DNA from: a virus
Strand: one strand, 5' to 3'
IMG/VR virus record: IMGVR_UViG_3300036652_002828
Span: 1-41,040 of that record
DNA: 41,040 nucleotides
The notes under the pieces were generated by a model, which was not told where the DNA came from, searched no databases, and saw only the letters and a program-made list of their open reading frames with translations. Made by a program: the position numbers and the translations under genes. Each line of letters begins with the position of its first letter. Position 1 is the stretch's first letter. Shown here piece by piece: positions 9,666 to 28,291 of the stretch.

Positions 9666-11246
9666 TTAATCGTCTGCCGATTCATTTAATGCCCTCTTTA
9701 TGTTTATCTGGCCACCTGTTGCCATATTATTCTTAATTTCAAAGGCTGGTGCCAGACGCTCACTAGGTGGTACAGTCGATACCACTCCGGCTTGCCCATG
9801 ACCAGATACATTAGGCATTTGGTTTTGGTAAGCAGCCGAGTCACTAGCATCATCATTAGCAGCCTTTGGAAACAGCTTAAGTTCTTCTTCGAGCTCAATA
9901 CACTGGTTTTGGCCGCCAATGGTCAAGTGCACTATACCACCATTCTCATAGCGCGGTACAAGCGTTTCAATGCGTAGCTCCTTTTGGGTGCCACCAGTTT
10001 TAAGCAATATGATGGTCAGGTACGTACCTCGCTTGCGCATTTCCTCACGTATCAGAGGCAACAGGCCTTGAGTAAACTGGTTATCTTCAATGCCAATGGC
10101 CCGCAAATGATAGCGATGCCAGTTAGTAAACATAAGGTCGATAACCCCAGTGGCACTAAGCTTTTCGCGGTAGCTCATAAACTGCCAGATAGGGTAGTCG
10201 CTGCGGGCATTCTCAATGAAGTTAATCGTCACACCTACAAAGTCTTTGCCCTCCTTGATGTCGTCTTTGCCACGAGGGTCAATCGTCATAGTGTTATGGG
10301 TAGTGGCAATATCAAGCGACTCAAAGGGCTTGTACCTAAACCACGATTGCTTAAATTTCCTATTCTCTTCGTCAATCGGGTTCTGCTGGTACAGGGCACT
10401 AAACTCGTAGGTACCCATAGCGGTCTTCATAGTCAGCAGCTTGGCTTCATTGAATTTGTCAGGCCAGAGGGCTTGGCCCAACTGCCTATGGTCATCATTC
10501 TCGGTAGCCAGCGCTTTATAGCTAATAATATTCCACTCGTCGTATGGCTCACCATCACGCTTGGCAATAGCAGCATCACGAAGTACCCGGCCGGCTAGGT
10601 CGTCTTCATGCCAACGGGTTAGGATAAATACAATCATGCTGGCGCCCTCTTGTCGAGTGTAAAAGGTTGAGCGATACCAGTTATAACGGCTCTCACGCAC
10701 TACAGCACTGTCAGCCTCTTCACGGTTTTTAAAGGGGTCATCAATAATACCAATCTTAAAGCCACGACCAGTCAATGCACCACCAACACCGACAGCTGTG
10801 TAGCCACCGCCTTCGCCAGTAATCCACTTGCCTTTAGCTTTAGCGTCAGTCCGAAGCTTAGTATCAAACATGGCGCTATATTCGTCAGAGGTCATAATGT
10901 TACGGGTAAGCATACCAAAGTCGGTGGCTAGTTCATCAGAATAGCTACTAACCATTACAGGCCACTCCGGCTTCCTGCCAAGCACCCAGCTTGGAAATTT
11001 CTGGGTAGCAGTATCACTCTTGCCGTGTCGAGGTGGCATAAATATCATAAGCCGTACGTTTTCGCCACGCTCGAGGGCCCGGTAGCCTTGCTCAAGCTGT
11101 CGTGCTATTTCAGCATGGAACCATTGCATTGAATAATGCTTATCAATCAGTATGCAATACTCGCCAAAGCTGCCGTGCAAGGCCGCTTCCCTATATATCG
11201 CTTCGATTTGTTCGAGCTCTAATAAGCTGCTCTGCTTGGTCAGCAC
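9666..11246 (-). CDS. terL: Terminase large subunit (TerL), 526 aa
   Basis: ATPase motor and nuclease that pumps DNA into the procapsid through the portal. Visible motifs: Walker A MPPRHGKS (residues 70-77), Walker B GIIDD (166-170), coupling motif ILTRWHEDDL (208-217), then the RNase H-like nuclease domain with acidic sites in MTIDPRGKDD, AIGIEDNQF and a late DDASDSAAYQ. Length is normal for the family. It overlaps the small subunit gene by 56 bases, as is usual for coupled terminase genes, and a TGG-extended -10 box follows it. Confidence 0.95.
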   Translation of the reverse strand: MLTKQSSLLELEQIEAIYREAALHGSFGEYCILIDKHYSMQWFHAEIARQLEQGYRALERGENVRLMIFMPPRHGKSDTATQKFPSWVLGRKPEWPVMVSSYSDELATDFGMLTRNIMTSDEYSAMFDTKLRTDAKAKGKWITGEGGGYTAVGVGGALTGRGFKIGIIDDPFKNREEADSAVVRESRYNWYRSTFYTRQEGASMIVFILTRWHEDDLAGRVLRDAAIAKRDGEPYDEWNIISYKALATENDDHRQLGQALWPDKFNEAKLLTMKTAMGTYEFSALYQQNPIDEENRKFKQSWFRYKPFESLDIATTHNTMTIDPRGKDDIKEGKDFVGVTINFIENARSDYPIWQFMSYREKLSATGVIDLMFTNWHRYHLRAIGIEDNQFTQGLLPLIREEMRKRGTYLTIILLKTGGTQKELRIETLVPRYENGGIVHLTIGGQNQCIELEEELKLFPKAANDDASDSAAYQNQMPNVSGHGQAGVVSTVPPSERLAPAFEIKNNMATGGQINIKRALNESADD

Positions 11247-11841
11247 TTAAACCTACCCCCATTAATTTTTCACCATCACTAGTAACATCAGTATCGATAC
11301 GGTCAACCCAACCGAAGTTATTCTTAAGGTTAAAGATGGTGCCGGCCACTGCATTAGTTTCGAGGCGACGCTGCACATCATGTTCTATTTTGGCCTTGGC
11401 TTTTTTTATCGTGTTACTAAACTTAGGGTTCAAGGGGTCGTAACCATCATCACCCGGTTTAATATCATACTTGCCATCTTCGTAGTCCAATAACACCTTA
11501 CGGCTAGTGTCTAAAGCTAATGCCAAACCAGTAACACTGTACGGCTCGCGGGCAGACAATCGATACTCAGTGTATTGCTCAGGTGGGCGGCTATGGTCAG
11601 TAACCATATGAGTCTTCTGCACTGGCTTACCACGCACTACAGTTTCGTAAGTTTCTTCAATCTCATGCCACTTATAAAGTACTGCCTGCTCTGGATGCGG
11701 GTCACAGTCAAAAAAGTAAGCGTCTATCTTACTTTGTAGCTCTTCAACTGATTTAAACTTGAGTGGTCGGCCACCTAAATTTGTGGGCGGCTGTTCGTCT
11801 TGAGTTGGTTGGCCTACTACGGGCTCTGCACTTTTCGCCAT
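11191..11841 (-). CDS. terS: Terminase small subunit (TerS), 216 aa
   Basis: Just upstream of TerL. N-terminal NLGGRPLKFKSVEELQSKID is a typical small-terminase opening (LGRPxKF..vEELqxkId). A helix-turn-helix-like stretch, YSVTGLALALDTSRKVLLDY (residues about 95-115), is the DNA-recognition part, followed by a helical oligomerisation region (FSNTIKKAKAKIEHDVQRR). It recognises the packaging site. A late-type promoter lies 10-40 bases upstream of the ATG. Confidence 0.9.
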   Translation of the reverse strand: MAKSAEPVVGQPTQDEQPPTNLGGRPLKFKSVEELQSKIDAYFFDCDPHPEQAVLYKWHEIEETYETVVRGKPVQKTHMVTDHSRPPEQYTEYRLSAREPYSVTGLALALDTSRKVLLDYEDGKYDIKPGDDGYDPLNPKFSNTIKKAKAKIEHDVQRRLETNAVAGTIFNLKNNFGWVDRIDTDVTSDGEKLMGVGLSADQAEQLIRARTNRSDI

Positions 11842-12201: not shown

Positions 12202-12450
12202 CTAATCTTTGTAGGGTAGAGCTACCTGCTTATGACGCCGGGGCTTTACTCTATCACTTATTGCCGGGTGGGCCTTTAGGTAACTACGTGGTGCGGTAGC
12301 CCGGTTCAAATACCATTTGTTAATTTTCATTACTTTTTCGCGAGTCTTGTCAGTGCCTTTGCGTTCGCCAGTCTTCACTAACCACAATAAATTAGCCTCT
12401 CGGGCTTGTAGAAATACTGGCCGGTTATCTGTGGTAATGAGTAGTGCCAT
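12202..12450 (-). CDS. Small basic protein, 82 aa
   Basis: Basic protein with LLWLVKTGERKGTDKTREKV and a C-terminal Arg/Lys-rich patch (VKPRRHKQVAL), consistent with nucleic-acid binding. It lies 15 bases before the zinc-ribbon gene in the same direction. I recognise no family; it could be a small early regulator. Confidence 0.5.
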   Translation of the reverse strand: MALLITTDNRPVFLQAREANLLWLVKTGERKGTDKTREKVMKINKWYLNRATAPRSYLKAHPAISDRVKPRRHKQVALPYKD

Positions 12451-12537
12451 TTCGCATTACTCACTTCCCTTGACTTGGTTATGAAATTTATGGTAGGTCA
12501 TATCTGTTATGTTCGCATATTGTCTGGTTTTAAGCAA

Positions 12538-12666
12538 CCATCAGCTTAAAGTCGTAGCCCGAGGGGGTGGGCACCTGCGGGCTACTAACCGCCAAGAGCA
12601 CGGTTTTTAGGCTACGTTCGGCGGCTTATCTGCTTAAAGTGCGCCCACTACTTGACGGCTGATAGG
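12538..12666. ncRNA. Structured element with potential pseudoknot (129 bases), strand uncertain
   Basis: Part of a 294-base gap (12451-12744) with no gene I can support. Pairings read directly on the plus strand: P1 CCATCAGC (12538-12545) with GCTGATAGG (12658-12666, A12664 bulged). P2 GTAGCCCG (12554-12561) with CGGGCTAC (12578-12585), 8 bp. P3 AACCGCC (12587-12593) with GGCGGCTT (12620-12627, one bulge). The loop of P2 carries GTGGGC (12567-12572), complementary to GCCCAC (12643-12648), which would form a pseudoknot. An alternative pairing of CGTAGCC (12553-12559) with GGCTACG (12610-12616) competes with P2. GCTTAAAGT occurs twice (12544, 12632). Both flanking genes are minus strand, but a G-U pair (566-649) slightly favours a plus-strand RNA. 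It could also be a packaging or replication site. Confidence 0.5.
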
Positions 12667-12744
12667 TACTTAAATCTGGCGTGTTGGCTGTTGGCTTTGA
12701 TGGCTCAACGATTTACGGACTTCACGACTAGCCGCACCAACTGT

Positions 12745-17287: not shown

Positions 17288-17500
17288 ATGACGGATTCAA
17301 AAAACCTCTGCCCCATAAGCGATACCGGTAACCACCGTTACTTCATCTTTAAGGCGGTAGAGGTTTTTGAGCCCTTACAGGTTAGTTTGGCTGCTGATGG
17401 CCCTGCTGACCTAAAGCACACCTTTTATGAAAAAGTAGAGTATGCCCTACTCGGCTGCAATTGTGGCTCGGTTATTAAACAAAAGGTCAAAGCAGCATGA
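17288..17500 (+). CDS. Unknown protein with Cys-rich C-terminus, 70 aa
   Basis: NHRYFIFKAVEVFEPLQVSL and LLGCNCGSVIKQKVKAA. One CxC plus an N-terminal Cys (NLCPISDTGNH) could bind zinc. ATGA overlap with the glycosyltransferase start. Function unknown. Confidence 0.6.
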   Translation: MTDSKNLCPISDTGNHRYFIFKAVEVFEPLQVSLAADGPADLKHTFYEKVEYALLGCNCGSVIKQKVKAA

Positions 17501-18669
17501 CTGAGCTCTTGTCTGCTTATGGCGGCGTAGCTTTATCTCGAATAGGTTTACAAATTGTCACTTCTGGTCTTGAGCGTAAAAAGACTATAAAGCCGGTCCC
17601 CTACCCGACGGCAACTCTCATCGTGCCAACTTATAACGAACCGATAGATATATTCATAAAAGCGCTGGCTGGATTCAAACGGCTGGATTATGACGATTTG
17701 CAAGTTATTATAGTCGACGATGGCAGCCCTAATGCATCCGCTATTAGGCGGGCTACCCAATTGGCTGGGTTCGATTACATTTATCAAGAGAATGCCGGCA
17801 AGCGCGACGCTATCTATACCGGTATTAAACACGCCAAACCCGAGAGCAAGATTATATTTTTAAGCGATAGCGATACTGTCTGGCAGAAAGACGCTGCCAA
17901 GCGTTTAGCCGACACCCTTTATGCAGATAAACAAACCGGCGCCGTTACTGGCGAGGTGTCGGTATTAAACTATAACGATAACCTTATGACGAGAATAATT
18001 AATATGCGCTATCATATGGCTTTTGCTTATGAGAGGGCCAGCCAGTCTTATTTCAAAACAGTGACTTGCATATCCGGGCCGCTTGGCGCCTACCGTCGAG
18101 AAATCATCGAGAGCATTAAAGACGACCTCGTTACCCAAACCTTCTTGGGCAAGAAATGCAATTATGGCGATGACCGTCACCTAACGAACTTGGTGCTAAT
18201 CGCCGGCTATAAGGTACGTTATGCTGCTAAAGCCAAATGCTACACTCAGGCCCCGGTGCATTTACTGGGTCTTTTAAGGCAGCAGTCACGTTGGGGTAAG
18301 TCGTATTGGCGCGAGATATTTTGGCAGGTCCGAGCCTTGCGTAAGCACGGTCTATATCTGACCTATGATTTTTTGGTAACCTCGATGCTTCCCTTTCTGC
18401 TTATTGGTTCAACGATATACCACATATTCTTGGCATTTACCGGACAGCCACACCAGCTTATAGCCCTGTTTGCTATGATTACATTTATGAGCACGGTTAG
18501 AATAATTGACCCAATGTTACGCCAACGTGACCCTTGGTATTTAGCTTTTCTGCTATATGCACTGCTATACTTCTTGGTATTGCTACCGGTTAAATTAGTC
18601 GCCCTGTTTACATTAACAAGCGGTCAATGGGGCACCCGCAATAAATTAGCAAGTGCAGAATTAGCATGA
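17497..18669 (+). CDS. Membrane glycosyltransferase family 2, hyaluronan-synthase-like, 390 aa
   Basis: Motifs of processive GT2 enzymes in order: VPTYNE (43-48), VDDGS (73-77), SDSDT (123-127, the metal-binding DxD), GPLGAYRR (194-201), GDDRHLT (224-230) and QQSRWGKSYWRE (262-273), with C-terminal membrane helices (about 290-318, 320-336, 345-375) and the terminal WGTR. This order, especially GPLxxYRR, GDDRHLTN and Q(Q/x)xRWxKSYxRE, is that of class I hyaluronan synthases and NodC/chitin synthases. HasA is about 419 aa; this one lacks the N-terminal helices. Substrate cannot be told from sequence. It would make or modify a cell-surface polysaccharide from UDP-sugars at the host membrane, for example to block superinfection. 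Confidence 0.88.
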   Translation: MTELLSAYGGVALSRIGLQIVTSGLERKKTIKPVPYPTATLIVPTYNEPIDIFIKALAGFKRLDYDDLQVIIVDDGSPNASAIRRATQLAGFDYIYQENAGKRDAIYTGIKHAKPESKIIFLSDSDTVWQKDAAKRLADTLYADKQTGAVTGEVSVLNYNDNLMTRIINMRYHMAFAYERASQSYFKTVTCISGPLGAYRREIIESIKDDLVTQTFLGKKCNYGDDRHLTNLVLIAGYKVRYAAKAKCYTQAPVHLLGLLRQQSRWGKSYWREIFWQVRALRKHGLYLTYDFLVTSMLPFLLIGSTIYHIFLAFTGQPHQLIALFAMITFMSTVRIIDPMLRQRDPWYLAFLLYALLYFLVLLPVKLVALFTLTSGQWGTRNKLASAELA

Positions 18670-26433: not shown

Positions 26434-26760
26434 ATGAAACGAGAGCCATCAATAGGCCTATATCCTCTTAATGATTGTGTACTAGTTGAACTTCAACAGT
26501 CACGTAAAAACTTCTCAACTAAAGAAGGTAAATACGACACCCGTACAGAAGGTATTATTATCGCGGTGCCTGAGCCAAAGGGTATCTATTTTATATCCGA
26601 TGATTGCCAAAAGAATAGTTGGCCAATCGAACAAGTTGAAAAATTAATGGGTAAGCGGGTTCACTTTGAAGAGTTTAAGGAAGGTGCCCGCATTAAGCGC
26701 AATGGCAAGATTTATAGTTTTATTAAAATTGAAGATATAAGGGGCTACGAAGTTGAGTAA
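26434..26760 (+). CDS. groS: GroES-like co-chaperonin, 108 aa
   Basis: Cpn10 pattern: IGLYPLNDCVLVEL at the N-terminus (as xIrPLxDrVlVk), TEGIIIAVPEPKG for the roof-strand GxVxAVG, GKRVHFEEFKEG for the vGDxVxF part, and IEDIRGYEVE at the end. It is 10 residues longer than E. coli GroES (97 aa). A longer in-frame ATG at 26416 would include the -10 box, so 26434 is the likely start and the mRNA would be leaderless. It caps GroEL to make the folding chamber. Confidence 0.8.
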   Translation: MKREPSIGLYPLNDCVLVELQQSRKNFSTKEGKYDTRTEGIIIAVPEPKGIYFISDDCQKNSWPIEQVEKLMGKRVHFEEFKEGARIKRNGKIYSFIKIEDIRGYEVE

Positions 26761-28291
26761 GCTAGTTAAAAATGTCGTATTTGATGATGAATTACATACT
26801 AAAATTGCCAGTGGATTACTGAAAGCTTATAACGTCGCAAAGGCCAGTTTTGGCCCTAATGCCGGCAATGCTCTTATCGAATACCCATACGGTGACCCGC
26901 TGATTAGCCGTGATGGTGTTACCAACCTTCGTAAGCTTATTCTTGATGATGCAATAGAGAATGCAGCTGTACAAACAGTCGTGCAAGCTTCAAAACATAA
27001 TGACCAGAGTGTTGGTGATGGCACGACCGGTACAGCCATACTAGCTTTTCATTTATACACTGCTGGTCGTAAATTAGTCGCGGCTGGTCAAAATCCTATG
27101 GTAGTCTCTCGCCAAATTATTGAGGCCGGCAACAATGCCATTGAAGAAATTGATAATCTTAAAAAACCACTTAACCCAAAGATGCTTAATAAGGTGGCTA
27201 CAACGAGCGCTGGTGATGAAGCTATCGGTGAGTTGGTAGCTGAGACTGTTAACGCGGTAGGTGCTGACGGCGGCGTAACGCTGGAAGACTTTGCCGGCAG
27301 AGGCGTTTATAACGAAATCGTTGAGGGCTTTTACTTCCGTAAAGGCCTGGTCAGCGCCTATCTAGCTAAAGACCCTGCCAACCTTGAAAGCAAGCATTTT
27401 AAGGCACCAATATTGGTACTCGATAAACAGTTAAGCGAACAAGGCGAAGCGGCCGAAATCATGGAGCGCATTATAGATAAGAAGTTCAAAGAGTTAGTTA
27501 TCGTAGGCGCGGTAGCTGGTGACGCCTTGGCCTTTATCGTGCAACTACGTCTATCAAATAAACTTATCGTCAGTATTGTCGACGCCCCATACGACGCCCG
27601 TAGCCTATTCCTTGAAGACCTGGCCCTAATGACTGACGCCACTGTAATTACCGAAGGTTTTGATGTCAACGAATTCGATATCAAAATGCTAGGCTTTGCT
27701 GAAAAAGCTGTGGTTACTACTAGCGGTACTACACTGCTTGGTGCCGACGGGCAAGCCGATAAGATTAATAAGCGCGTAAAAGAGCTACAGACCCAACTAA
27801 AGCAAGCATCTAGCCCAGTCGATATTGAAATGATACGGGCCCGGCTCTCACGTTTAACCGGTAAGGTTGCTATAATCCGAGTGGGTGGTGCTACCGAGAC
27901 CGAGCAAAAAGAAGTCAAGCTACGGGTGCAAGATGCGGTAGGGGCCGCCCAAGCAGCGTTAAAAGACGGTATATTGCCTGGCGGCGGTACTACATTAGCC
28001 AGACTTGATGTGGGCTTCAAAGAGGCGTTTGAGGCGCCATTCTTGCAGCTGGCACATAACAGCGGGGTAAATCCCGAGCGCTTATTGTTTCAGCTGCAAG
28101 ATGCGCCCAGTAATTTTGGCTTTGACCTTCGCAATATTACCGATAAGCCAATTGATTTAATCAAGGCCGGCGTAGTCGACCCAGCATTAGTTATTAAAGA
28201 AGTCGTTATCAACGCCGCAAGTGTTGCTGCCAAACTGCTTACAACCAGCTCCGGTATCACTCTGGCTAATCGAGATGAGAAGCATGACTAA
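26753..28291 (+). CDS. groL: GroEL-type chaperonin, 512 aa, TTG start
   Basis: Group I chaperonin. ATPase motifs: SFGPNAGNAL for the KFGPKGRNV loop, ISRDG (D54), SVGDGTT (GDGTT 88-92), the RVQDAV segment (D394, equivalent of E. coli D398) and GGG (410-412). The apical and intermediate domains are full length; the phage protein lacks the GGM C-terminal tail and ends NRDEKHD. The start codon is TTG at 26753, inside the end of GroES (8-base overlap), after AAGGGGCTACG. Probably folds the phage capsid or other virion proteins, or replaces the host complex. Divergence from cellular sequences suggests long residence in phages. Confidence 0.95.
   Translation: MSKLVKNVVFDDELHTKIASGLLKAYNVAKASFGPNAGNALIEYPYGDPLISRDGVTNLRKLILDDAIENAAVQTVVQASKHNDQSVGDGTTGTAILAFHLYTAGRKLVAAGQNPMVVSRQIIEAGNNAIEEIDNLKKPLNPKMLNKVATTSAGDEAIGELVAETVNAVGADGGVTLEDFAGRGVYNEIVEGFYFRKGLVSAYLAKDPANLESKHFKAPILVLDKQLSEQGEAAEIMERIIDKKFKELVIVGAVAGDALAFIVQLRLSNKLIVSIVDAPYDARSLFLEDLALMTDATVITEGFDVNEFDIKMLGFAEKAVVTTSGTTLLGADGQADKINKRVKELQTQLKQASSPVDIEMIRARLSRLTGKVAIIRVGGATETEQKEVKLRVQDAVGAAQAALKDGILPGGGTTLARLDVGFKEAFEAPFLQLAHNSGVNPERLLFQLQDAPSNFGFDLRNITDKPIDLIKAGVVDPALVIKEVVINAASVAAKLLTTSSGITLANRDEKHD

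Follow-up and report, generated by a model that had tools for sequence, protein, structure and literature searches.

The locus and its RNA strand

The DNA analysed here (hereafter the window) is a virus record of IMG/VR with a length of 41,040 nt. The terminase genes terL and terS and a small gene are encoded on its minus strand (Table 1), and the gap at 12451-12744 contained no open reading frame of at least 60 aa, which agrees with an earlier note on this DNA that had described a gene-free gap of 294 bases. Within this gap lies a structured element, placed by that note 0.7 kb upstream of terS, and the position of terS bears this out. The outer stem and the inner hairpins proposed there are present; the extent given for the element, 12538-12666, had to be corrected to that in Table 1.

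The RNA strand of the element is the minus strand, sense to the terminase genes, because the single-sequence fold had a better shuffle z on this strand (-2.92 vs -1.34 on the plus strand) and every homologue is sense to its downstream gene. A plus-strand reading was rejected on the same two points, the weaker fold and the homologues all lying on the sense strand. The z of the single-sequence fold varied from -1.1 to -2.9 with the chosen ends; the element is convincing because of the comparative data, and single-sequence folding alone would not convince.

Homologues and architecture of the element

Relatives of the terminase led to L004, in which the gap upstream of terS retains a stretch of the element, and pattern scans of IMG/VR for the core gave L027 and then L090, L091 and L092, the last two being records from isolate genomes (IMG 2675903204 and 2545824722). 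With the window they make six distinct sequences from three phage lineages; L002, L049 and L064 were left uncounted as copies of the window, L004 and L027 sequences, respectively. Broader IMG/VR patterns gave no further members. In 662 kb of related loci the covariance model R1 recovered all six members and, below E=0.3, no other sequence, and a search of 50,697 phage records and 72,556 plasmids returned only short chance matches. BLAST matches in named phages (H37 TPWB-08, H53, H54 Gordonia phage William, H56 and H57) were discarded as short, chance matches, mostly inside genes. Pattern searches of 695 actinobacterial genomes (396 from the order of Microbacterium and 299 from the order of Mycolicibacterium) found none, and nearly all other pattern matches (for genome contigs, among the matches listed) were rejected as chance, being without the P2/CGUG context. 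The exact core sequence did not occur in the literature searched.

Table 1. Coordinates of the genes and of the parts of the element in the window
Feature	Position	Strand	Basis or remark
terL	9666-11246	minus	
terS	11191-11841	minus	PF16677
Small gene, 82 aa, directly downstream of the element	12202..12450	minus	follows the element in L004 and L027 too
Whole structured RNA element, closed by outer stem P1	12529..12674	minus	comparative structure
P1 outer stem, 5' strand UUUAAGUA	12667..12674	minus	pairs with 12529-12536; compensated in L004, L027 and one L090 stem
P1 outer stem, 3' strand UGCUUAAA	12529..12536	minus	comparative structure
Inner P1, 5' strand UAUCAGC (P1 of the earlier note)	12658..12664	minus	pairs with 12539-12545; window only
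Inner P1, 3' strand GCUGAUG	12539..12545	minus	minus-strand fold
P2, 5' strand GCCGUCAAG, bulged U, AG; directly before UGGGCGC	12648..12659	minus	compensated in all lineages
Invariant block UGGGCGC	12641..12647	minus	identical in six sequences
Invariant core UAAGCCGCCGAACGUA	12613..12628	minus	identical in six sequences
Invariant CGUG	12599..12602	minus	its CGU pairs with core ACG (P3)
P2, 3' strand CUCUUGGCGGU; directly after CGUG	12588..12598	minus	comparative structure
P4, 5' strand GUAGCCCG	12578..12585	minus	pairs with 12554-12561; differs yet paired in L004, L027, L091 and L092
P4 loop GUGCCCAC, complementary to GUGGGCGC	12567..12574	minus	no covariation
P4, 3' strand CGGGCUAC	12554..12561	minus	comparative structure

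The six sequences share 27 bases without a single change: UGGGCGC, UAAGCCGCCGAACGUA and CGUG. The order in the RNA is P2, UGGGCGC, a variable loop, UAAGCCGCCGAACGUA, a variable hairpin closed by ACG/CGU (P3) and CGUG, and this core is flanked by the outer stem P1 and the hairpin P4. The core is a junction closed by P2, in which GGCG can pair with CGCC as P2.1, and UGGGCGC is a possible partner either of the P4 loop (the pseudoknot) or of the core CGCC. The pairing that recurs in the homologues is P2 (12648-12659 with 12588-12598), which thermodynamic folding alone misses. P2 abuts UGGGCGC and CGUG in 6/6 sequences and its letters differ between lineages: GCCGUCAAG(U)AG/CUCUUGGCGGU in the window, CCUAGCAG/UUGCUAGG in L004, a 12-bp run including ACUAGAAG/CUUCUAGU in L027, GUUA/UAAC followed by one mismatch and continuing into a long stem in L090, GUCGA/UCGAC in L091 and UGUCGA/UCGACA in L092. 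The minimum-energy pairing of the window, AGCCGCC/GGCGGUU, was rejected; it occupies the P2 strand and is impossible in the homologues. P1 (UUAAG.../...CUUAA) and P4, a hairpin with (G/A)CCCAC in its loop, also vary with compensation. L090 is without P4, and the equivalence of P4 between the window clade and the L091/L092 clade is uncertain.

The trimmed alignment covers P1, P2, P3, P4 and the pseudoknot with 30 pairs, its segments having been picked by hand to pair. Paired cells make up 94.8% of it, compared with 28-45% in slid controls. The compensatory changes to which the earlier note had looked were found as two-sided changes in 19 of the 30 pairs (36 such cells), lying in P1, P2 and P4, against 1-5 pairs in slid controls; the pseudoknot had none, its bases being unvarying. 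None of 500 shuffles reached any of the alignment measures. Because the segments were hand-chosen, the covariation count leans towards structure, and the zero-offset P2 test, in which the 5' flanks were randomised and pairing abutting UGGGCGC and CGUG was scored, is cleaner. The chance of such a P2 was 2e-4 for the window (one bulge allowed), 8.5e-4 for L004, 5e-5 for L027, 0.05 for L090 and 7.5e-4 for L092. The minimum-energy folds of L090 and L092 independently yielded P2 together with GGCG/CGCC (P2.1) and ACG/CGU (P3). Helix cells comprised 116 Watson-Crick pairs, 6 G-U pairs and 6 mismatches, and the G-U cells therefore favour RNA over single-stranded DNA.

The complementarity GTGGGC/GCCCAC, proposed earlier as a 6-bp pseudoknot, is present and extends to 8 bp (GUGGGCGC/GUGCCCAC, 12641-12648 with 12567-12574). 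The window and L027 have all 8 bp, L004 has 6 bp and L091/L092 have only 4 bp, with GUGGGC/GCCCAC retained in three phages. Because both strands are unvarying where paired, the pseudoknot is plausible, not proven. The 7-bp alternative pairing of the earlier note, CGTAGCC/GGCTACG (12610-12616 with 12553-12559), occurs in neither L004 nor L027 and is thus probably chance.

Upstream of P1, L004 (1112-1175) and L027 (2093-2155) have a common block, TTTGACCCGGG(C/T)ATAAG(G/A)AT(A/G)G followed by TAGTC and TAAACTGCC(T/C)CGCC, which is only faint in the window. Given this block, the RNA may reach further 5'.

Known RNA classes and genomic context

The statement that the element matches no known class was supported by a covariance-model search of Rfam 15, which gave no gathering-score match in the window. 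In the 401-base gap region three chance-level matches appeared with E up to 10, none over the core, and at the five homologous loci no match covered the core. ARAGORN detected no tRNA or tmRNA gene in the whole window. No intrinsic terminator (GC-rich hairpin plus T-run) was present in the element on either strand, no promoter or terminator of its own was found for it, and no obvious ribosome-site sequestration or switch was evident at the element. A coding origin was rejected: the core has TAA in one frame, in the window a stop precedes the KPPNV frame by three codons, and there is no synonymous change in the 16 core bases. An RNA antisense to the phage's own genes was rejected as well: the rest of the window contained no near-complement of the core.

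Like the element, twister-sister(-like) ribozymes are junction RNAs in which a GCGC strand faces an AAG strand, a superficially permuted arrangement; in their catalytic loop GCUC^A faces GC(N)AG, with C-G and U-A pairs (PMC11620745). In the members found here the strand opposite UAAG is instead GCAC, GCUC or GCAA and is followed by U, C or G, in no case by A; L004 alone could form the U-A closing pair. A twister-sister ribozyme, including a permuted one, was therefore rejected, because the loop departs from the definition and no member has a C^A cleavage step; Rfam gave no match either. GOLLD and ROOL, for which no function is known, are likewise structured RNAs from phages and prophages (PMC12286853), but they are about 660-800 nt long and often near tRNA genes, unlike the present element, with no Rfam match and no tRNA in the window. 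The mycobacteriophages L5, D29 and StarStuff make an abundant non-coding RNA from an early promoter, the mechanism of which is unknown (PMC5712189). That RNA is also a phage non-coding RNA, in a divergent region, and the core in L091/L092 lies in a comparable long non-coding leader; the window element, however, is only about 150 nt and elsewhere placed, and its core had no beyond-chance match in the 50,697 phage records.

Every member is sense to and 5' of a gene start, at a distance of about 20-80 nt in the window, L004, L027 and L090 and about 200-300 nt in L091/L092. The downstream genes differ between lineages. In L027 the terL product is only 24% identical to that of the window, yet the element precedes the same small gene. 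In L091/L092 a small gene and a DnaJ-domain gene follow it at about 300 nt. The element is near terS in three phages (window, L004 and L027). In the available sequence it is absent from L005 and L006, with terL 79-86% identical to that of the window, and from phages with terL 65-78% identical to that of L027. L006 and L310 carry the same small gene as the window without the element. In the L091 prophage the element is at 1.5 kb on the minus strand and the terminase at 26.3 kb on the plus strand, about 25 kb away. Because close relatives lack it and in L091 it is far from the terminase, the element is accessory and not tied to packaging.

A pRNA-like packaging RNA, as the earlier note had suggested, is consequently unlikely, since the linkage to terminase is not constant and relatives with 65-86% identical terminases are without the element. 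It resembles the phi29 pRNA in its similar size, the possible loop pairing and, in the window phage, the position near packaging genes, but differs in that proximity to terminase is not conserved and Rfam gives no match. The terminase of the window phage is of the terS/terL type, in contrast with phi29.

L006 has a different compact multi-hairpin element (1036-1120) directly upstream of the same small gene, with an outer stem GTAGGCGG/CCGCCTAC and a z of -2.85. L362, whose DnaJ protein is 92% identical, has a compensated version of the ACCCACC-loop hairpin, with the core absent. This hairpin (L362:2310-2365 and the equivalents in L091/L092) sits upstream of the DnaJ-domain operon with a compensated stem, and its long non-coding leader also has a long-armed 5' stem.

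Possible function of the element

Comparison of the homologues establishes, at the level of sequence, that the minus strand 5' of a small gene encodes a conserved structured RNA. By the same comparison it is a new accessory family of phage structured RNA that is not listed in Rfam 15, and the earlier suggestion of a new phage RNA is upheld by the covariation in six distinct sequences together with the lack of an Rfam 15 match. That the element is a functional RNA family is very probable, and phage biology gains with it an RNA family supported by covariation.

That the core is strictly conserved in phage lineages whose surroundings are otherwise unrelated implies that its partner or its chemistry is conserved too. 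We propose, tentatively and with somewhat less than even confidence, that the conserved RNA acts as a compact host-binding non-coding domain and is an accessory gene. It would work as RNA within a longer phage transcript, its invariant core would bind a conserved macromolecule of the host, be it a protein, the ribosome or RNA polymerase, and it would be gained and lost by phages. In the clade of the window's phage the P4 loop may pair with the UGGGCGC strand; this pairing and P2.1 are mutually exclusive, so that the RNA could adopt two conformations. Phage non-coding RNAs with no known mechanism have precedents in that of L5/D29 (PMC5712189) and in GOLLD and ROOL (PMC12286853). It is possible, though doubtful, that the core, with its invariant junction of 27 bases, represents a new class of natural ribozyme or of RNA that binds a ligand or protein, and that unrelated phages, prophages of cultured bacteria among them, share it as an exchangeable module.

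A self-cleaving ribozyme that would process a polycistronic phage transcript between co-directional genes is a serious alternative because prophages carry self-cleaving RNAs between genes, hammerheads being known there at the flanks of genes (PMC3088659). The compact junction, the long invariant core between variable helices, the possible pseudoknot, the intergenic position and the sporadic distribution with different neighbours would fit it. We consider it rather unlikely, as no Rfam ribozyme model matches, the internal loop is not that of twister-sister, no cleavage site can be named, and the core of L091/L092 lies within a long leader. The element always precedes a gene, so it might instead be a cis-regulatory leader, a riboswitch or a protein-responsive one, in which P2.1 and the pseudoknot would switch the gene just downstream. 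That every member lies in sense orientation shortly before a gene start, and that the two pairings exclude each other, agrees with this, but the variable downstream genes, the occurrence of the same gene without the element in L006 and L310, and the lack of a terminator or obvious ribosome-site sequestration make such control unlikely.

Action as DNA, that is as a pac/cos site, replication origin, attachment or protein-binding site whose inverted repeats form single-stranded DNA hairpins, appears quite improbable. The long invariant block and the nearness to terS in three phages could suggest it, but the helices contain G-U pairs and the element is always sense to the downstream gene. The pac or replication site considered in the earlier note likewise finds no support, with the L091 core about 25 kb from the terminase on the other strand and the element missing beside closely related terminases. 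A chance cluster of hairpins in one intergenic gap is hardly credible; the single-sequence fold is only moderately better than shuffles, but the homologues refute it, with an invariant core and compensated helices in unrelated phages.

Elsewhere on the plus strand of the window, a chaperonin-like protein (Cpn60_TCP1, E 4.8e-47) is encoded at 26753-28291 and a family 2 glycosyltransferase at 17497-18669.
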